NCBI GenBank assembly: GCA_021828635.1
Contig: JAJZEJ010000457.1
Location: 1 to 7,212 of the forward strand
DNA: 7,212 bases
Reading direction: 5' to 3'
From: Chloroflexota bacterium
Lineage (GTDB): Bacteria > Chloroflexota > Ktedonobacteria > Ktedonobacterales > Ktedonobacteraceae
The position numbers were made by a program, and so were the translations under genes. Shown here piece by piece: positions 1 to 7,212 of this stretch (position 1 is its first letter; the number at the start of each line of letters is the position of its first letter). Below the pieces are notes generated by a model. It saw only the letters and a list, made by a program, of their open reading frames with translations. It was not told where the DNA came from and made no database searches.

Positions 1-1
1 G

Positions 2-1375
2 TTGACTGTCGAAAACAATCCAGACGTTCAAAATCTTCAAGCTTTGACAGAGCAAGATATTGACGCTTTTCTTCTTCATCTGCGTGCAACTCCCAACCTC
101 CGAGGAGGAAAGACGAGTGATGATCAAATTTGGAACTCTGTACATCATGTGGAAGGGCTTCTTTTGCATCTTGAACGCCTGGAGAGCCCCATGAGGCCAT
201 CTCTCCCGGTAGCCCGCATCATCTGGCCCCACCATTATCCACCCGATGGGAGCAACAAAAAATCAGAAGGGATCAAGTACATCCCTCAAGTAGTTCTACG
301 CCAACTTGACGAGCACATTCAGGACTTAGCTCCCTCCTGTGTTCCTGTCGTCATCCTCCTACGTGCTAGCGGGTGGCGAATCTCCGATGTGCTTTATCTC
401 AGGATGGATACGTGTTTGGAACAAGAGGGAAATGAGAAATACAGGCTGGTCGGAGACATTCAGAAAACGCGAGTGCTCGGCCACAAAATCCCTATCACCC
501 CAGAAATTGCAACGGTCATTAAGACCCAGATCGCCTGGGTGAAGCAGCACTATATGCCTGGAGAAAACCCCAAGGGCTGGCTTTTCCCTGCCTCAAAAAC
601 ACACGGCCAGGGGACTAGCAAACGCTTTAAACAGGGGAACCCATTAGCAGCACGAGGGGTAAATCTAGCGCTCAATCACATGGGGGCAAAATATCAGATG
701 AAAGATGAGCAAGGAATCGTCTTTCGTTTCAAATCGCACGCCTTCAGGCATACAAAAGCAGTCGAGTTGCTGAACAGCGGAATGTCACTCATCATGGTGC
801 AGCAGTGGTTGGCTCACGCCTCGCCAGAAATGACCTTGATCTACGCGAAGATCCTCGATGAGACTATGCGCACCCAATGGGAAAAGACGGTACAGCAGGG
901 AATTGTTCAGTTCAACGATGGGAAGCCAGAGTTCATCCCTGGCCAAAAGCTGTTGCCAATGGCAGGCGAAAATGGGTTTGATCCCGAACGTGTTCGCGAA
1001 CATCGTCAGAATGTGAAGATGGCTTTCGGCTCCTGCCTGAAGACGGCCAAAATCATGTGTAAGTTTGTGGAACTGCCGTGTTTTCATTGCCCCGCTTATG
1101 TGCTGACCCCCGATGACCTTCCTGCGCTCGAAATCTACGAGCAGCAAATTCTCGAACGCGTCGAGATTGGCAAACAAGCCGGGAATGCTCACTGGATCGA
1201 AGTCAATCAGAAAAATCTTGAAGAACGGGTCCGGCCAGCTCTTGCGCTCCTCCGACAAGGCCATATTGTCGCAAAAGCCGACCGGCGGGAGCGCGAGTAC
1301 ACCAACGAAGAATGGGAGCAGCGCCAACAGAACCAGCAGGAGAAAGCCCATGAGCGAGAAGACCTGGAAGCGTAA
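2..1375 (+). CDS. Tyrosine recombinase, Tn554 TnpB-like (5' end probably outside window)
   Basis: Site-specific DNA recombinase that would cut and rejoin DNA through a covalent phosphotyrosine to move the surrounding element. The complete tyrosine-recombinase set is visible, numbering from the TTG at base 2: Arg126 in GWRISD, Lys155 in QKTR, His246 and Arg249 in HAFRH, His272 in LAHAS and nucleophile Tyr281 in LIYAK. Residues about 10-110 look like part of a helical core-binding domain. After the catalytic domain comes a cysteine group (Cys345, Cys353, Cys360, Cys363) that may hold a metal, then a charged Gln/Glu-rich tail. Tn554 TnpB is, from memory, about 630 residues; only 457 are seen and the frame is open to the left edge, so the TTG is probably internal and the gene truncated by the window. 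It overlaps the next gene by 26 bases, as expected for a TnpB-TnpC pair. The recombinase call is very secure; the Tn554 TnpB subgroup is likely. Confidence 0.9.
   Translation: MTVENNPDVQNLQALTEQDIDAFLLHLRATPNLRGGKTSDDQIWNSVHHVEGLLLHLERLESPMRPSLPVARIIWPHHYPPDGSNKKSEGIKYIPQVVLRQLDEHIQDLAPSCVPVVILLRASGWRISDVLYLRMDTCLEQEGNEKYRLVGDIQKTRVLGHKIPITPEIATVIKTQIAWVKQHYMPGENPKGWLFPASKTHGQGTSKRFKQGNPLAARGVNLALNHMGAKYQMKDEQGIVFRFKSHAFRHTKAVELLNSGMSLIMVQQWLAHASPEMTLIYAKILDETMRTQWEKTVQQGIVQFNDGKPEFIPGQKLLPMAGENGFDPERVREHRQNVKMAFGSCLKTAKIMCKFVELPCFHCPAYVLTPDDLPALEIYEQQILERVEIGKQAGNAHWIEVNQKNLEERVRPALALLRQGHIVAKADRREREYTNEEWEQRQQNQQEKAHEREDLEA
1338..1342 (+). promoter_or_regulatory. Ribosome binding site fixing the TnpC-like start
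   Basis: AGGAG lies inside the end of the recombinase reading frame, seven bases before the ATG at 1350. It supports the short start and independent initiation or re-initiation of the TnpC-like gene. Confidence 0.7.
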
Positions 1376-1745
1376 CACAACAGGGATTGCGGCCCACGCG
1401 CAAGCTCGTCGTGAGCACAAACGCAAAGGTGTGGAAGACGCCATCGCTACTCTCCTGCGAGAGCAGAAGCCGATTAATTTCCACATCGTAGCAAAGGCGG
1501 CTGGCGTGAGCAAGGCGTATCTCTATGGTCAGCCAGACCTACGAGAGCGCATCGAGGCTCTTCGGCAGCAAACCATGGAACAAATGGTGCGCGCACGGGC
1601 AGTGCCTGCACCAGGGAAAACCGATGCCAGCCGCGACCTGGTGATCCTGGCCAAAGATCGCCGCATCAAGGAACTGGAAGCAGAAAATCAGAAACTGAAG
1701 CTTCAGCTCAAAACAGCATTGGCAAAAGCCTACGACCAGCTCTGA
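1350..1745 (+). CDS. Tn554 TnpC-like transposition accessory protein (DUF6262-type)
   Basis: A 131-residue protein of the kind encoded third in Tn554-type cassettes, where TnpC modulates transposition by the two recombinases. Residues about 38-71 form a helix-turn-helix resembling TetR-type DNA-binding segments (VAKAAGVSKAYLY core). Residues about 97-131 are charged with heptad spacing (RRIKELEAENQKLKLQL), predicting a dimerising coiled coil. The N terminus is basic. The ATG at 1350 is preferred over an in-frame ATG at 1113 because AGGAG lies at 1338-1342, seven bases upstream, and because the longer version would run through conserved recombinase sequence. The 26-base overlap with the recombinase implies translational coupling. 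Its stop at 1743-1745 is followed by the structured non-coding segment. The family assignment rests on size, position and HTH-plus-coiled-coil architecture. Confidence 0.85.
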   Translation: MSEKTWKRNTTGIAAHAQARREHKRKGVEDAIATLLREQKPINFHIVAKAAGVSKAYLYGQPDLRERIEALRQQTMEQMVRARAVPAPGKTDASRDLVILAKDRRIKELEAENQKLKLQLKTALAKAYDQL

Positions 1746-1790
1746 TGATGAAAGAATGATAACGCCCGACCTGCTGTGTTCCTAGCCCGC

Positions 1791-2046
1791 TAAGTCCCGC
1801 CGGAGGCACCGTTGAAGGGCTACCCTGTTGCACCGGAGCACAGAGGGGCGTGAAGAAAATGCGGGCGCAAGCGTACCCTTGACCGAGGATGGTAGGCTCG
1901 GAGGGGTTCAGCGCGGTCCCTGGGTCATACCTGCATTAGCCCCTGAGCCGCGCTGAAGTCCCGTAGTGCGTACCATCCTCGGTCAAGGGACGCATTTTTA
2001 GCCCCGGCGTGCGGAGACGAACGCTCGCTCTTGCCCTTCGGACTTA
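1791..2046 (+). ncRNA. Candidate large structured RNA downstream of the transposase genes
   Basis: No convincing reading frame crosses this stretch, but complementary segments nest without conflict. (1) 1791-1797 TAAGTCC pairs with 2040-2046. (2) 1814-1820 GAAGGGC pairs with 2033-2039, directly stacked on (1); the 16 extra bases between (1798-1813) can form a short GCC/GGC hairpin. (3) 1823-1846 is a hairpin with two single-base bulges. (4) 1845-1849 GGGGC pairs with 2001-2005 (bases 1845-1846 compete with helix 3). (5) 1856-1863 AAAATGCG pairs with 1991-1998. (6) 1876-1894 pairs perfectly with 1971-1989 (19 bp). (7) 1907-1916 TTCAGCGCGG pairs with 1948-1957. A four-base hairpin GCGT/ACGC at 2007-2010/2021-2024 is also possible. 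Such ordered nesting over 256 bases suggests a folded RNA, or a folded single-stranded DNA end. The + strand is assumed from the transposase direction and a T-run at 1995-1999. I do not recognise the class; boundaries are approximate. Confidence 0.55.
1871..1993 (+). repeat. Long inverted repeat (19-bp perfect arms, extended to 23 with one bulge)
   Basis: Arm 1876-1894 (CCCTTGACCGAGGATGGTA) is exactly complementary to 1971-1989. Four further pairs, 1871-1874 with 1990-1993, form if A1875 is bulged out; this alternative competes with helix 5 of the larger fold. The 76-base interior holds a second 10-bp stem. A run of five T (1995-1999) follows on the + strand, so the hairpin could also stop transcription from the transposase operon. 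Confidence 0.8.
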
Positions 2047-2093
2047 TCGAACTTCAGACAAAGGCAGCTTCATTGCATACGTGGTTGACATGT
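2047..2093. other. Short spacer, nothing recognised
   Basis: This stretch lies between the last paired base of the structured segment and the stop codon of the - strand gene at 2094. It presumably contains or adjoins the transposon boundary, but I see no terminal inverted repeat, target duplication or attachment core that would fix it. Confidence 0.3.
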
Positions 2094-2798
2094 CTACGAG
2101 CGTGAAGTTGAGATAACATTACAAGAAGGAGCACCACGCGACGCTTCCACTGTTGCAGCCTCCACTGCCTGTGAACCAGGACGGAACGTCCCATACCCAC
2201 GCGCCCATACGCTGGCGGGAACGGCACCCACCGTCAAGCGCCGTGGCGAAGAGGACGTGTTTGCTGTCTCATGGTCAGGTTCAAGCTCAGCCTCAGACTC
2301 GACACAGGGCTGGATACTGAGCGTTTTGCCGGATGCTTGCGTGAGCGTATGAGCCAGCGCCAGTGCGTCCTCGTAGGCACGCCGGTAGCCTGCATGACCC
2401 AGACCATCTGACCCATAGTCACCAGCCGTGCGGACCAGAGGCAGTTGCTCACAGCGTAGCTGGTTGGCCGCTTCCACCGTATGCTGATATCCTGGAAAAA
2501 AGTGAACGGGAATCCTGTTGCTGAGTATCAGCCAAATGATGGTGGGATCGATGACGTGCTGCTGGGTCTGCTGGGTCTGCTGGGTCTGCTGGGTCTGCTG
2601 AGTACGCACACACCAGCCATGTTCGATGACGCACACCTCATGGGGCAAATCAACGACGATCCATCCTTCTACCAGGAAGCTCTCCTGGGCAAACAGATCA
2701 GGCAGAGACACAATAGCGTGCCAGGCGTTGGCGTAACAATGGTGAGGACGAGCCTGGGTGAACAGCGCAACTGCGAGAGACAGTTCGTTGTGTAGCAT
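2094..2798 (-). CDS. Papain/transglutaminase-fold-like protein, paralogue 1, with Thr-Gln-Gln repeat and extended tail
   Basis: A 234-residue protein of unknown function, clearly homologous along residues 7-150 to the gene just upstream (2881-3378). Shared blocks are QA-PH-CY-AW (15-26), LVEGW (42-46), EHGW (59-62), VIDP (82-85) and G-GH-GY followed by DAL (132-146). Cys21, His60 and Asp84 are spaced as in cysteine-protease or transglutaminase-like folds, and I recall similar C-NA / VEGW / HAW / DPT patterns in uncharacterised phage and bacterial proteins; enzymatic activity is inference. Five Thr-Gln-Gln units occupy residues 66-80, between the His and Asp motifs, where the paralogue has only a short loop. 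About 70 Ser/Ala/Pro/Arg-rich residues follow residue 163 and are missing from the paralogue. ATG at 2798 is preferred over TTG at 2801: AAAGGAG at 2805-2811 is six bases from the ATG and only three from the TTG. No signal peptide is seen. Confidence 0.75.
   Translation of the reverse strand: MLHNELSLAVALFTQARPHHCYANAWHAIVSLPDLFAQESFLVEGWIVVDLPHEVCVIEHGWCVRTQQTQQTQQTQQTQQHVIDPTIIWLILSNRIPVHFFPGYQHTVEAANQLRCEQLPLVRTAGDYGSDGLGHAGYRRAYEDALALAHTLTQASGKTLSIQPCVESEAELEPDHETANTSSSPRRLTVGAVPASVWARGYGTFRPGSQAVEAATVEASRGAPSCNVISTSRS
2559..2603 (-). repeat. In-frame 9-bp tandem repeat, five units
   Basis: On the + strand CTGCTGGGT is repeated four times exactly (2559-2594), then once with a single change (CTGCTGAGT, 2595-2603). 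Read on the - strand it encodes five Thr-Gln-Gln units. The unit is three codons long, so gain or loss keeps the frame; the near-perfect identity suggests recent slippage expansion. Confidence 0.95.
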
Positions 2799-2804
2799 CA
2801 AAAA

Positions 2805-2811
2805 CTCCTTT
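2805..2811 (-). promoter_or_regulatory. Ribosome binding site deciding the start of paralogue 1
   Basis: The - strand sequence AAAGGAG is six bases upstream of the ATG at 2798 and three bases upstream of the alternative TTG at 2801, favouring the ATG. Confidence 0.75.
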
Positions 2812-2872
2812 GGGATGGATGGGAAATTGGGTAGGTCAAACAGAGAGGAATGGGAAACCAGAACGGAAAGGG

Positions 2873-2891
2873 AAAAACGGTCACACCGTTT
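2873..2891 (-). terminator. Possible weak terminator hairpin after paralogue 2
   Basis: On the - strand AAACGGT (2891-2885) pairs with ACCGTTT (2881-2875) around a three-base loop, and five T are read at 2877-2873. The hairpin overlaps the end and stop codon of the 2881-3378 gene. The stem is short (5-7 bp), so termination would be partial at best. It lies before the 82-bp gap leading to paralogue 1. Confidence 0.35.
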
Positions 2892-3378
2892 CGCTCTCGT
2901 GCTGAGCGCGGTCTACCCTGAGCCGTTTGGTGGTCAGCCGGACCCGCGCTTCTGCATGCGAGAGGGCATCACAAAACGCCTGAGCATAGCCACGATGCCC
3001 AAAGCCATCGGGGGCAGAAGCCTGGTCAAAGCGTACATGTGGCATGATCTGTCCCTGCATCGCCACGGCCTCACTACGTGTGTAGCGCACACCAGCAAAA
3101 AAGGCGGGCGTGGCAAGCCTGGGCAGAAAGAGGATGGAGGGGTCGATGACGCATCTTTTGCCTGCTCGCTCCACCTCCAACCAACCATGCTCAAAAACCG
3201 CAATGCAGTGGTCGTACTCATCCACCGCCCATCCTTCCACCAGCCATCCCTCCGAGAGCCACGGCAACCTGATGAGGGCAAGCCAGGCGCTCTGATAGCA
3301 CTCGTGAGGTTGGGCCTGAACCAACGCGGCAACCCGCAAGGAGACGACCCAATCAAGCGTGCATGGAAGCTGATCCAT
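2881..3378 (-). CDS. Papain/transglutaminase-fold-like protein, paralogue 2
   Basis: A 165-residue protein of unknown function and tandem paralogue of the 2094-2798 gene. It carries the same ordered blocks: QAQPHECY-AW (21-32), LVEGW (46-50), EHGW (63-66), VIDP (77-80) and GFGHRGY followed by DAL (125-139). Cys27, His64 and Asp79 are the candidate triad. It lacks the Thr-Gln-Gln expansion and the long tail of its sister, so it probably shows the ancestral domain length. The ATG at 3378 shares bases with the TGA of the upstream gene (TGATG), a typical coupling signal; a GTG one codon earlier is possible, and the local ribosome site (AGGTGG-like) is weak, which also points to re-initiation. No signal peptide or membrane segment is visible. 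Whether the triad is catalytic or only structural cannot be told from sequence alone. Confidence 0.75.
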   Translation of the reverse strand: MDQLPCTLDWVVSLRVAALVQAQPHECYQSAWLALIRLPWLSEGWLVEGWAVDEYDHCIAVFEHGWLEVERAGKRCVIDPSILFLPRLATPAFFAGVRYTRSEAVAMQGQIMPHVRFDQASAPDGFGHRGYAQAFCDALSHAEARVRLTTKRLRVDRAQHESETV

Positions 3379-3878
3379 CACACCACCTGCCGCACGTCAA
3401 TCTCATTGAGCGCCCCTGCTTGCATCTCTGGCCCTTGTTGCTCTCGCCAGAACCAGAAGAGACGCTTCATCGTGTCGGCGATGGCATAGAGCAAATGCCA
3501 CAAGGCGTACTCACGATGGTCCTCGAAACCGTGACTGCCCTGGTAGGTTTCCATCGTGACAAAGACCGCAAACAGTGGATGGGCCGGTGTCAGCGTGACA
3601 AGAAACACATGGAACTTCAGGATGTTGTCCTGAGTGGGGATGAGAACACGCAGTTCTGGCTGCAGCGAGTGGTGATCCAGGTCGAGGCGATAGAACGCCT
3701 CATGTTCTCTGGCTCGTTGCAGGTAATACATCTCAGGAAGTGGGCTAAAGTTGGTCAACGATGCTGGTTGACCAGCGCCACCGTTGCTGTTGCCACTCCC
3801 GGATACAGAGCAAGATGGCTGCTCAAGCTGCTGGCTCAGTTGCTCCAGCAAGTGGTGGATTTCTGGTGTGAGGTCCAT
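3378..3878 (-). CDS. Hypothetical protein, aromatic-rich C-terminal half
   Basis: A 166-residue protein I do not recognise. The N terminus (about 5-20) is a Leu/Gln-rich amphipathic helix. A Ser/Gly/Asn-rich low-complexity linker spans about 23-42. Residues about 50-120 look like an alternating beta-rich domain (LRVLIP, FHVFLVTLT, LFAVFVTME). Residues about 125-148 form a helix rich in Trp, Phe and Tyr (ALWHLLYAIADT, LFWFWRE). The ATG at 3878 has AAGGAG at 3887-3892, eight bases upstream. Its TGA overlaps the ATG of the next gene (TGATG), so it is co-translated with paralogue 2 and probably functions with it. The reading frame stays open upstream of the ATG for about 41 codons without an ATG, GTG or TTG, so the ATG at 3878 is the first usable start. 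Confidence 0.7.
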   Translation of the reverse strand: MDLTPEIHHLLEQLSQQLEQPSCSVSGSGNSNGGAGQPASLTNFSPLPEMYYLQRAREHEAFYRLDLDHHSLQPELRVLIPTQDNILKFHVFLVTLTPAHPLFAVFVTMETYQGSHGFEDHREYALWHLLYAIADTMKRLFWFWREQQGPEMQAGALNEIDVRQVV

Positions 3879-3922
3879 AACGGGTTCTCCTTTTGCGTGT
3901 TGTTGTGATGAACAGGAAAAGT

Positions 3923-3970
3923 TGGATGGGCAACGGTCAAGCAGCGACCAACGTCCATCCAGCTGCTTGA
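3923..3970 (-). other. Two crossing inverted repeats in the gap after the clamp gene (possible pseudoknot or weak terminator)
   Basis: Reading the - strand, TCAAGCAGC (3970-3962) pairs with GCTGCTTGA (3945-3937), nine bp. TGGATGG (3961-3955) pairs with CCATCCA (3929-3923), seven bp. The arms interleave, giving H-type pseudoknot topology or two mutually exclusive hairpins; with no base between the first two arms, both could form fully only with fraying. The second stem is followed by AACTTTT, so it could act as a weak terminator for the clamp operon. The rest of 3879-4010 holds only the ribosome site of the next gene. Confidence 0.4.
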
Positions 3971-4010
3971 TGATGAGAAGGTCAACGATGCGCTTGCTTC
4001 ACCAGCAAGA

Positions 4011-5273
4011 TCAGGTAAGTTCCCAGAAGTAGAGCGCCGTCGGAAGAATGTGATGCACGTTGAAGCCCTCACTTGTCGAGCAAGGCGCTGCGTGCAAGGC
4101 CAGCTTAGTAACGTGCAGGATCAACTCGTCCGAACTGATTCTGCGTGCCGCGTGCAAGGCGTCAAGCAGTTCTTTCAGCTTATCAGTACGCAAGGTGATC
4201 GAGACTGGTTCCCCCGCCTCGGTAGAAGCACCGGGAAGCAGAGGGAGGTCAATGACGGTCGAGTCTGCTTGCAGGTGCAGCATGGCATCGGTGATGTGGA
4301 GCGTGATGCGCTCCTGCCGCCACGCTTTGCCCAGAGACGAGATGAGCGTGCCAAGGGCCGCCCGCAGCGCGGCTCGCCTCACCATGACCTCTCTGCTCTC
4401 TGTACGGTTGGGAACCAACGCCTTCGTCACGTCGGGATAGGTGCCATAGATCGGCACCAGCTCTATCGTCGATGTAGCGGCAGCAGCAGAAGCAGCTGCG
4501 TCCCGCACGCACAGACGCACGATCCGTTCACGAGGCACAGCCTTGTGAAGTGGGTGATCCTCCTGGGCGATGACCTGTTCGGTGAGAACGGTTGCGGTGA
4601 GATGCAGCGTCTCACTATGCGCAAAGACGCGCAGCACGGCATGCAAGACGGCAGGAGCCAACACCACCGGAGCCGCAAGTGAGGCGGGACATGGCACAGA
4701 AGCGTGGGCCAGGCGAAAGACATCAGTTGCGGTTGCCGTTAGCTGTCCGTCGCCGAGTGTCAACAATACTCCAGACAAAGGGGGATGCCCGCACGGATCT
4801 GCCTCCGCTGCATACGCCACTTGGCGTGTGACGAGCTTGAGTGCTTCAGAGGACAGCACCGTGGTCTGCTCCCGCCGTGCGAGAATCTGAGAGGTGACCT
4901 CTTCCCACGAAGAAGAACCTTTGTCCAGCAGCGTGAGCTGGGTGCCGGGTTCTGCAAGAGCGGGCAAGAGAGCAAGTCTGCCCGGCTCGCTCACCTCCGT
5001 GACCGCATGCAGATGCACCATTCCCTGGTAGTCCGCAAGCGTGGTAAAGATGTGCTGCAACGGCCCTCTGACACTGCCAGGAGTCGTCACCGTGAGCGAC
5101 CCGTGTACGGGGACGCTGATACACAACTGTGGCGTCGCCGCCATGAGCTGTACCCCATCCTGGCTCGCTACCAGGACGGCGCTTTGTCCGGCCTTTCGTG
5201 GGTCAAGCGCCTTTGCCACCCTCTTGGCCGCTGCAAGCAGGGCTGGTGCCTCAACGGAGAAATCTGCTCCCAC
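4011..5273 (-). CDS. dnaN: DNA polymerase III beta sliding clamp homologue (accessory DnaN)
   Basis: The beta clamp is a ring dimer of three similar domains per subunit that encircles DNA and tethers polymerase and repair proteins. This 420-residue protein shows the family order: an N-terminal domain (about 1-120); a middle domain beginning near 135 with HPPLSGVLLTL (163-173) and the ATD-FRLA motif (182-189); and a third domain with the YGTYPDV-K-LVP stretch (276-288), ending ILPTALYFWELT, which matches the usual C-terminal hydrophobic strand that forms part of the partner-binding pocket. It is longer than the common length of about 370 residues, partly from an Ala-rich insertion at 258-266. 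The start is GTG at 5273, immediately after the upstream stop, with AAAGGAGG at 5283-5290 nine bases away. It is the last gene of a tightly packed run. No polymerase or clamp loader is in view, so it is probably an accessory clamp of a plasmid, phage or integrated element rather than the chromosomal copy; this is inference. Confidence 0.88.
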   Translation of the reverse strand: MGADFSVEAPALLAAAKRVAKALDPRKAGQSAVLVASQDGVQLMAATPQLCISVPVHGSLTVTTPGSVRGPLQHIFTTLADYQGMVHLHAVTEVSEPGRLALLPALAEPGTQLTLLDKGSSSWEEVTSQILARREQTTVLSSEALKLVTRQVAYAAEADPCGHPPLSGVLLTLGDGQLTATATDVFRLAHASVPCPASLAAPVVLAPAVLHAVLRVFAHSETLHLTATVLTEQVIAQEDHPLHKAVPRERIVRLCVRDAAASAAAATSTIELVPIYGTYPDVTKALVPNRTESREVMVRRAALRAALGTLISSLGKAWRQERITLHITDAMLHLQADSTVIDLPLLPGASTEAGEPVSITLRTDKLKELLDALHAARRISSDELILHVTKLALHAAPCSTSEGFNVHHILPTALYFWELT

Positions 5274-5939
5274 TCAAGAAACCCTCCTTTCATCTTCGTC
5301 ATGCTCGCTCCTCTCGCACGATGGCGGCACAGTTGGTTGAACGACCGTGAAGCCACCATTGCTTTCTATGATGAGTCGCCGCCGAACCATCGTTTGCAGC
5401 ACCTCGTGCAGGTCATCGACGACCGAGAGAGGCGTAGCTCGAAACGGTTGGTTGGTTGCGATCCAGTAGGCAAGCGTCTGGACATCAAATGACGCCAATG
5501 CGGTGGCGAGGAAGCGCGTGCGGGCCATCTGCTCAAGAGAGAGTGGCGTGGGATGGGTACACAACAGTCTCAAGAGATCATGTTGCACCTCCTCATCTGG
5601 CCTGAGCAAGCTCCCGAGCATCTGGTAGCCACCAGCACGCTGACCGGTAGGCCAGTGCAACAGTGGTTGCCTTTGCAGGAGCGCCGCCCGTTGCCAGAGC
5701 AGCGGGCAAGCACAGCACAGCAGGCAGCACGCAGGCGTAGGCCATGCTGCTTTGATCACGCTGACTAGCTCATCGACGATAGGTTGCGTGAGGAGCGATT
5801 CGGCCTGCGCTGCATCAAGACTGACGGTTGATTGACCTGTCTGTCGGACCTGGACCAGCGCCTGAGCGACCACGTGCGCCAGGCGCTCCTGTTGCTGCTC
5901 TGCTTGACTGGCAAGCGTGCGTAAGACAAGCGTCGTCAT
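5274..5939 (-). CDS. Hypothetical protein with dense cysteine cluster and possible winged helix
   Basis: A 221-residue protein I do not recognise. Residues about 1-60 are predicted helical and Gln/Ala-rich (SQAEQQQERLAHVVAQAL). Five cysteines fall in eight residues (71, 72, 75, 76, 78: CCLLCCAC), an arrangement that could bind a metal or iron-sulfur centre or form disulfides. The C-terminal half (about 130-205) is helical and ends MVRRRLIIESNGGFTV, which looks like the last helix and beta-wing of a winged-helix domain; this is inference only. An earlier in-frame start at 6053 is rejected because the ATG at 5939 has AAGGAGG at 5946-5952, six bases upstream, and forms an ATGA overlap with the preceding stop. 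The stop abuts the clamp GTG with no gap, so the two are almost certainly translated together and this protein may act with the clamp. Confidence 0.75.
   Translation of the reverse strand: MTTLVLRTLASQAEQQQERLAHVVAQALVQVRQTGQSTVSLDAAQAESLLTQPIVDELVSVIKAAWPTPACCLLCCACPLLWQRAALLQRQPLLHWPTGQRAGGYQMLGSLLRPDEEVQHDLLRLLCTHPTPLSLEQMARTRFLATALASFDVQTLAYWIATNQPFRATPLSVVDDLHEVLQTMVRRRLIIESNGGFTVVQPTVPPSCERSEHDEDERRVS
5283..5290 (-). promoter_or_regulatory. Ribosome binding site supporting the GTG start of the clamp gene
   Basis: AAAGGAGG on the - strand lies inside the end of the upstream gene, nine bases before the GTG at 5273. It is a near-ideal Shine-Dalgarno and explains why a non-ATG start is used. 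Confidence 0.8.
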
Positions 5940-6262
5940 CGGATGCCTCCTTCTCGCATCACCGGCGGCAGTTCCTTGATCTGGACGCTGCGCTGCGCTG
6001 CGTTGGTGATGCGGACTTCGCGGACAATGGCAACCAGCAAGGCAGCCTGACACCAGACTTGCACTTGGGCAGAGGTCGCAGCGTCAGCAAGCTCGATGAG
6101 GAGAAACTGATACTGACTCTGGAACTCTATTCCAGTATGGATGATGGCTTCGTGGCCCACGATCTCTTCGAGTTGCCTATACACACGGGGAAACTCTTCA
6201 CGGGTCGTGGTGATGAAGAGGGTTCCACTCAGAGGGTGGGATGGTGATGGAAGTTCGGTCAT
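5936..6262 (-). CDS. Small hypothetical protein (108 residues)
   Basis: Not recognised. The segment GTLFITTTREEFPRVYRQLEEI (13-34) suggests a beta strand followed by a helix. Residues about 45-60 (FQSQYQFLLIELAD) and 66-85 (QVQVWCQAALLVAIVREVRI) suggest a strand-helix-strand arrangement, compatible with a small alpha/beta domain. There is no signal peptide, and the one hydrophobic stretch (about 73-80) is too short for a membrane span. ATG at 6262 has GGAGGAG at 6272-6278, nine bases upstream, and lies three bases after the preceding stop. Its TGA overlaps the next ATG (ATGA). Membership of the clamp operon is clear; function is unknown. Confidence 0.72.
   Translation of the reverse strand: MTELPSPSHPLSGTLFITTTREEFPRVYRQLEEIVGHEAIIHTGIEFQSQYQFLLIELADAATSAQVQVWCQAALLVAIVREVRITNAAQRSVQIKELPPVMREGGIR
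5946..5952 (-). promoter_or_regulatory. Ribosome binding site deciding the start at 5939
   Basis: AAGGAGG on the - strand sits six bases before the ATG at 5939 and within the end of the preceding gene. It rules out the upstream alternative start at 6053, which would overlap that gene by 118 bases. Confidence 0.8.
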
Positions 6263-6265
6263 GGT

Positions 6266-6928
6266 TTAAGACTCCTCCTTGTCATGTTTTTGCTCTTCGT
6301 CTGGCAGGGAGTAGATGCCTTCTAACAGGCTACGTTGTTGTTGTTCCCAATACGCCTGACAATGGCCGGCACAGTGGAACGGTCCTACTGAGCGACAATC
6401 TCTGGCGCATTTTTTCAGCATCTCCTCCTCGTCTCCGCTGTATACCTGATAATGGATGGCTAGTCCATGCACGCGACAGAGCAGTTGCATGGGTACGCCG
6501 TAACGCCCATCGTCATAGTCGATGAACTCTCCTCCTAAAAAGTGCCGCCTCGGCGGATATTTTTCAGAATGGCAGTGTCGGCATTCCCAGTCAGGATGAT
6601 AGTACAGCTGCTCCTCATCACTCACGAGCGGGAGCCGTCCGCCTGCTGCCAGGGTACGCAGTTCTCGAGGCGTGAAGAGGGCGCTGGTACCAACGGCGAC
6701 AATATCGCCGTAGCGTGGATCCTCTGAAGAGGGAAGGCGCTTGCCATACTCAGTGACCAGGCAAGAGAGAGGATGGTCAGGATACGGGCTACTCTCCAGG
6801 AGAAAGATGCGCCGGGGCAAGCTCTGCAAAAACGGATCGATCTGCTCAGCAGGGAGCCAGCGAAGCAAGGAACCAGAGGATTCATCCTGGTGCGGGCCGT
6901 ACCAGGCTACGATGCATTCCCTGGTCAT
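6266..6928 (-). CDS. Cys/His-rich hypothetical protein, probable zinc binder
   Basis: A 220-residue protein I cannot name. The first 110 residues have no recognisable motif. From 116 onward there are four Cys/His pairs: Cys116-x2-Cys119 (with His120), Cys151-x2-His154, Cys174-x3-Cys178 and Cys186-x3-Cys190 (with His185 and His189). This would suit two structural zinc sites, perhaps in a treble-clef or ribbon arrangement. The last 20 residues are acidic and Lys/Glu-rich. ATG at 6928 overlaps the preceding stop as ATGA; its own ribosome site is weak (AGGA about eleven bases away), consistent with coupled re-initiation. The stop at 6266 is three bases from the next start. It could be a nucleic-acid-binding or protein-protein adaptor in the clamp operon, but nothing in the sequence decides. 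Confidence 0.72.
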   Translation of the reverse strand: MTRECIVAWYGPHQDESSGSLLRWLPAEQIDPFLQSLPRRIFLLESSPYPDHPLSCLVTEYGKRLPSSEDPRYGDIVAVGTSALFTPRELRTLAAGGRLPLVSDEEQLYYHPDWECRHCHSEKYPPRRHFLGGEFIDYDDGRYGVPMQLLCRVHGLAIHYQVYSGDEEEMLKKCARDCRSVGPFHCAGHCQAYWEQQQRSLLEGIYSLPDEEQKHDKEES

Positions 6929-7212
6929 AGCCTGGTTTCCTGTATCCCTGTCTCATCGTCTGGCAGATCACGTGGCAAAGCAGGGGCAATCAACTCGGCG
7001 AGTTCGTGCCAAGTGTCGAGCAGGAGAGGCAGATTGCCTGGCTCGGAGGCAGGTTGGGCAATGCCGAGCATCACCATGGCTTCATCCTGCAAGGGCGGGC
7101 AGTCGAGCAGAAAGGCACCTCCCTTCCATTGCCAGTTCTCGGTTCCCGATGCCCCATGTCCTGGCGGGATGTCACGGGTAAACGCTTGACTGTCCTGGGC
7201 GGTGAGGACATG
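6925..7212 (-). CDS. Partial hypothetical protein running off the right edge
   Basis: An open frame enters from the right edge and continues for 95 codons to TGA at 6925-6927. It has no start inside the window other than internal Met codons near the middle (MVMLG), so it is the 3' end of a longer gene. Reasons to accept it: no stop in 288 bases; a protein-like composition (GGAFLLDCPPLQDEAMVML, then LPLLLDTWHELAELIAPALP, a probable amphipathic helix); and a 4-base ATGA overlap with the next gene, matching the spacing style of the operon. The C terminus is acidic (LPDDETGIQE). I recognise no family. Confidence 0.65.
   Translation of the reverse strand, partial: HVLTAQDSQAFTRDIPPGHGASGTENWQWKGGAFLLDCPPLQDEAMVMLGIAQPASEPGNLPLLLDTWHELAELIAPALPRDLPDDETGIQETRL

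Follow-up and report, generated by a model that had tools for sequence, protein, structure and literature searches.

What lies behind the last gene of a Tn554-type recombinase cassette when 256 bases of the DNA that follows it are self-complementary? An earlier note on this locus had taken the block for the gene of a multi-helix RNA, with closing segments that looked designed for a three-way junction. We have analysed the whole stretch of DNA that carries it (7,212 bases, hereafter the window), whose features are collected in Table 1. The hairpin beside the Tn554-like genes is real, and the block is present as described, with a core that goes beyond chance and an outer multi-helix plan that is weak. 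As for its role, we tentatively favour, among several competing readings, a hairpin that ends transcripts from both sides and sits in non-coding DNA toward the right end of the element.

Table 1. Features of the window around the self-complementary block.
Feature	Position	Strand	Basis and remarks
tnpB-like tyrosine recombinase	2..1375	+	5′ end beyond the window; PF00589, E 3.4e-17
tnpC-like gene (DUF6262)	1350..1745	+	overlaps the end of tnpB; PF19776, E 6.1e-15
Self-complementary non-coding block	1791..2046	.	exact helices; fold z −6.3 for 1791-2050
Split closing helix, 5′ arms	1791-1797 + 1814-1820	.	pair with 2040-2046 and 2033-2039, exact complement
Core hairpin	1876..1989	.	19 perfect bp (1876-1894/1971-1989) and inner 10-bp helix (1907-1916/1948-1957)
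Core hairpin with flanking A4 (1856-1859) and T5 (1995-1999)	1856..1999	.	putative two-way transcript-end pattern, read from sequence; AAAATGCG/CGCATTTT pair
Imperfect palindrome GTTGACATGTCTAC	2084..2097	.	possible recombinase site
Tail of ORF 2094-2801, past the part common with neighbour ORF 2881-3381	2094..2313	−	paralogy stops at residue 163; codon-position G+C

The Tn554-type neighbours announced in the earlier note are borne out by a phage integrase domain, a DUF6262/TnpC domain and tblastn matches to Tn554-family recombinases, and TnpC (DUF6262) stands behind a tyrosine recombinase of the TnpB type, the hallmark order of Tn554-related transposons; the window begins within tnpB, so that any tnpA would fall outside. 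Identity is 29.6-35.8% between TnpB and Tn554-family recombinases on plasmids (tblastn, 20 listed of 246 records) and at most 41.5% between TnpC and Tn554-family plasmid proteins (192 records, among the listed matches covering at least 80% of the query). In public protein databases 662 homologues of TnpC were found, of which 120 were listed; the one labelled homologue, P0123, carries a Ktedonobacteraceae label, which makes a host in this family of the Chloroflexota probable. An alignment of the window's TnpC with 25 sequences hand-picked from the 120 listed homologues showed residues 90-113 of the gene at 1350-1745, KTDASRDLVILAKDRRIKELEAEN, to be near-invariant across the 26 sequences.

To the right of tnpC, minus-strand genes run convergent toward it. 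The first two of the ORFs concerned here, 2094-2801 and 2881-3381, are adjacent paralogues of unassigned family that share 36% identity over 157 aligned columns, and their likeness reaches residue 163 of the former, at about base 2313. The remaining tail shows a codon-position G+C of 0.51/0.64/0.65 versus 0.66/0.40/0.63 in the ORF body; it is probably not genuine coding sequence, and may be element or intergenic DNA caught in an open frame. The same ORF carries a 9-base tandem repeat at 2559-2600, CTGCTGGGT in 4.7 copies, encoding a QQT repeat that is missing from its sister. Further along, the minus-strand ORF 4011-5273 resembles a distant sliding clamp of the DNA polymerase type (phrog_947, E 1.2e-14), scores under the curated cut-offs of the DnaN models and showed no relative when plasmids and phages were searched by tblastn. 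The gene search of the window gave no defence families.

All six helices named in the earlier note are present base for base, and the closing helix can even be extended to 1788-1797/2040-2049 with one mismatch. The predicted folding energy of the wider segment 1746-2093, for which a comparison with shuffled sequence had been proposed, was better than that of all 100 shuffles on each strand when folded as RNA (z −4.75 on the plus strand and −4.55 on the minus strand), and folding as DNA gave a z of −4.76. When 27 windows of 260 bases were tiled over 1-7020 (30 shuffles each), the extreme value fell on 1821-2080 (z −6.6); the second lowest, −4.0, belonged to 521-780, within the tnpB coding sequence. 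The block is also richer in G+C (0.625) than its flanks (0.533 at 1746-1790 and 0.447 at 2047-2093). The G-U pairs in the fold, five on the plus and four on the minus strand, do not discriminate between the strands. The RNA minimum-energy fold of 1791-2046 drops two of the named helices (1845-1849/2001-2005 and 1856-1863/1991-1998) and puts 1848-1851/1859-1862, 1863-1866/2001-2004 and 1871-1874/1990-1993 in their place, while the minimum obtained with DNA parameters keeps all six. The small hairpin said to be inserted between the closing segments does exist, within 1798-1813, at a length of just 3 base pairs.

A closer look at where this signal resides divides the block into two unequal parts. 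Nearly all the excess folding signal of 1746-2093 sits in the core hairpin, whose 114 bases folded alone give a z of −10.5, and when the window was turned into a structure model, that model recognised the opposite strand of the window as well, at 1869-1993. With the core held fixed, shuffling of the arms 1791-1875 and 1990-2046 left a z of −2.5 (2 of 200 shuffles as good), which fell to −0.5 (64/200) when the wider arms 1746-1875 and 1990-2093 were used, and the outer part alone gave −1.5 (28/300). In this regard, a single perfect inter-arm helix of at least 8 base pairs, such as 1856-1863/1991-1998, is common (3,694 of 20,000 shuffles of the arms). By contrast, just 53 of the same number contained a split 7+7 closing helix, contiguous on one side; this makes it a lead and no proof, because it was selected after looking. 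The proposed design for a three-way junction is not supported, since the outer arms are weak once the core is held fixed, and the helices that close the block on the outside may be there by accident.

What follows tnpC in related elements was studied in a set of 27 distinct downstream stretches, the window included (48 before removal of near-duplicates), from which L043 and L044 were left out, presumably since tblastn with the window's TnpC missed them. An inverted repeat within 250 bases that was reached by at most 5 of 100 shuffles was found in seven of the 27, namely the window, with 19 bases (0/100 shuffles), and six others with 10-15 bases; one of these six, L002, is a phage-like contig with no Tn554 element, and another, L027, lies after a broken tnpC copy. 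A clear inverted repeat was missing from the other 20 of the 26 tnpC-like downstream stretches besides the window. Moreover, the folding energy over 300 bases was lowest for the window among 32 tnpC downstream rows (z −6.1, followed by L024 with −3.7), a comparison that counts repeated copies and for which the stretch of L023 was taken from an internal stop onward.

Some of these distant relatives also hint at where such elements end. Three copies in one genome (L026, L031 and L032, in G087) are identical up to about 78-88 bases past the tnpC stop and diverge thereafter, which would place the right end of their element near that point. Their stretch after tnpC contains a palindrome, GTTGACTACATGTAGTCGAC, together with a G+C-rich hairpin; these three and L024 (genome G126) all have a palindrome, some 20 bases long, immediately behind tnpC, and the words GTTGAC and ACATGT are common, by eye, to the palindrome of the three copies and the one at 2084-2097 in the window. 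In all four loci an AGGAGG of Shine-Dalgarno type and a start codon come directly after the element, as if these elements targeted DNA just upstream of ribosome-binding sites; the gene that begins there in L024 resembles, by eye, triosephosphate isomerase. A second kind of element, also in G087 (L036, L047 and L048), has sequence in common to about 186 bases after tnpC, with a stem and then a T run, but the stem is at chance level (93/100 shuffles). At about 100-186 bases after the tnpC stop, this element seems to provide a 45-residue ORF with its TTG start and its first ~28 codons; the ORF then continues, without a change of frame, into three flanks that differ from one another but have similar ends. 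Since right ends that lie near tnpC and hold small hairpins do occur in the family, a position of the block in the right-end part is reasonable, not proven, and we consider it most likely that the block lies inside that part of the Tn554-like element.

The reading of the block as a two-way transcript end, which we hold as possible rather than probable, starts from its main feature, a single hairpin roughly 120 bases long between an A-tract and a T-tract. Both the tnp transcripts and those of the converging genes would run into this hairpin, which might stop RNA polymerase and/or cap and protect the RNA 3′ ends, so that the genes of the element and the flanking genes would be kept from reading into each other. 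We favour this option because the signal sits in a single hairpin that folds equally on both strands, as expected for such a role, because A4 and T5 stand at its base with convergent genes on both sides and no codon-position bias in 1746-2090, and because the elements of the relatives seem to end near tnpC in hairpin-holding non-coding DNA. Usual terminators are far smaller than this hairpin. A consensus scan of 1600-2300 for intrinsic terminators, i.e., a G+C-rich stem with a short loop and a direct T-tract, found none in the block, a result to be read with the fact that the scan permits only loops of 3-8 bases, to which a hairpin of this size is invisible. The sole terminator-like match in that region lies outside the block, on the minus strand at 2145-2130, and is at chance level (1 versus 0.8 expected); if real, it would end minus-strand transcripts before the block and so count against a two-way end. 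The T-tract is separated from the 19-bp stem by a 12/1 internal loop, and the helix between A-tract and T-tract does not form in the minimum-energy RNA fold. Also against a two-way end are the split 7+7 helix, which is unlikely by chance and unneeded for such a function, and the 20 tnpC-like stretches with no clear inverted repeat.

Somewhat less probable, and in our view rather unlikely, is an independent structured non-coding RNA gene of the element or of the host replicon, in which the helices 1791-1797/2040-2046 and 1814-1820/2033-2039 would close a three-way junction, essentially as the earlier note had suggested. The z of the block in Table 1, the lowest value among the 32 tnpC downstream rows (repeated copies included), the rarity of the split closing helix among shuffles and the signal of the outer arms within the limits of the named helices all speak for it. 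However, the wider arms do no better than shuffles, both strands fold equally well and no sigma-70-type promoter-like site was found in 1600-2300; the claim of an RNA gene is not supported. The scans for known RNAs agree with the earlier note, which could not place the block by eye in HEARO/OMEGA, GOLLD, ROOL or group I/II introns, and gave no family at gathering score: with the Rfam 15 covariance models the whole window had no match even at an E-value limit of 1, and 1740-2110 just six weak sub-threshold ones, the best being Dictyoglomi-1 with 19.5 bits versus a cut-off of 150. Other candidates were discarded along the way. No tRNA or tmRNA was found in the scan; a retron, a group II intron and a bridge RNA were set aside, and among the 9-10 main ORFs of the window scanned there is no reverse transcriptase, IS110 recombinase or RNA-guided nuclease; and a hammerhead at the CTGATGA of the tnpC stop was set aside for want of a stem II, by eye. 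The open-access literature consulted on Tn554, DUF6262 and Ktedonobacteria (including PMC3414803, PMC10214605, PMC5385486 and PMC13289182) describes no RNA at this place.

The search for relatives of the block weighs in the same direction. A blastn search of plasmids and phages yielded no relative; among 33 loci (171,255 bases) nhmmer gave no match and blastn a single chance match, L033, which was likewise the only short exact piece of the block in viral contigs and was rejected as a relative for being a short stretch without the fold. The single-sequence covariance model of the window matched nothing but the window itself across 34 sources. The 398 genomes of a single phylum, that of G001, gave no match to it either, but this set includes no positive control genome and hence shows little. 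The expectation that the block would recur after related cassettes was disappointed for the tnpC-like genes compared as DNA, behind which there are small hairpins at most; all of them are distant (tnpC at most 47% identical), the best being L020 with 46.5% identity over most of its length. The only genome-contig match, L001, is a tnpC remnant with 63% identity over 41 residues, and the tnpB, tnpC and clamp searches of viral contigs returned only L002 and L003, phage-like contigs sharing just a 35-residue stretch. When the spurious 46-residue ORF 1816-1953 was used as a proxy for the DNA, no candidate protein shared three words with it. Reading TnpC past its stop gave 145 proteins among 1,161 candidates (120 listed); of 17 sequences inspected P0124 alone, a close homologue compared as protein, had a longer C-terminal run, with 24 extra residues (72 bases) unlike the window's downstream sequence in that frame, a mismatch of little weight against an RNA gene because only ~26 of the 72 bases would reach into the block.

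A third reading, which we regard as unlikely, sees in the block a fold-back repeat, that is, a palindromic insertion of the MITE type, whose imperfect 10-base ends read CG(C/A)TAAGTCC and which came to lie by chance between the two gene sets. Its near-palindromic build with matching ends and a G+C content above both flanks would fit such an origin, as would the 25-238 predicted mobility genes in each of ten Ktedonobacteria strains (PMC13289182). On the other hand, no target-site duplication was seen by eye at either possible pair of ends, and there is no second copy within the 7.2-kb window.

More doubtful still is a role at the level of DNA, with the block serving as the right-end recombinase binding or attachment region in the form of duplex or cruciform DNA. 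The palindromes just after tnpC in the four relatives and at 2084-2097 in the window are compatible with it, as is the strength of the DNA fold (z −4.8), in the minimum of which each of the six named helices is present. Also in its favour, the termini of Tn554 itself are described as imperfect inverted repeats (PMC10214605). Against it, the left end of the present element, where the matching repeat would lie, is outside the window. Moreover, tyrosine recombinases act at sites made of two short arms that flank a core only a few bases long, and a 256-base branched fold is unlike them. Finally, it is very improbable that the block is a 256-base branched RNA of a Ktedonobacterial Tn554-like transposon working with the tyrosine recombinases, perhaps by guiding the choice of target or by serving as a scaffold when the ends are joined, which if true would make this an RNA-assisted tyrosine-recombinase transposon.

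We know of no RNA tied so far to a Tn554-type transposon, and a fold kept by compensatory changes after tnpC among homologues would be the first one. In its order and in the overlap of tnpB and tnpC, the window is like Tn554 and the Tn554-related transposons (tnpA-tnpB-tnpC), and like them it has non-coding DNA after tnpC, where some relatives hold small hairpins; the relatives examined, however, lack a 256-base self-complementary block. With HEARO/OMEGA and the IS110 bridge RNA the block shares the condition of a structured non-coding stretch adjoining a recombinase gene, but it differs from both in having no Rfam match and a tyrosine recombinase as neighbour. A retron msr-msd resembles the block in that repeats close off a region of short hairpins and a single long one, whereas the 9-10 main ORFs scanned here include no reverse transcriptase, the sequence before tnpB falling outside the window. 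The comparison with bidirectional terminators between convergent genes brings us back to the transcript-end hairpin that we tentatively prefer: the block is like them in its convergent genes and in the A- and T-tracts around a G+C-rich stem, and departs from them in that it was missed by the consensus scan, has an internal loop before the T-tract and is branched, with a stem-loop several times larger. If the block were only such a transcript-end hairpin, it would be an unusually large example of its kind, in a poorly studied group of bacteria.
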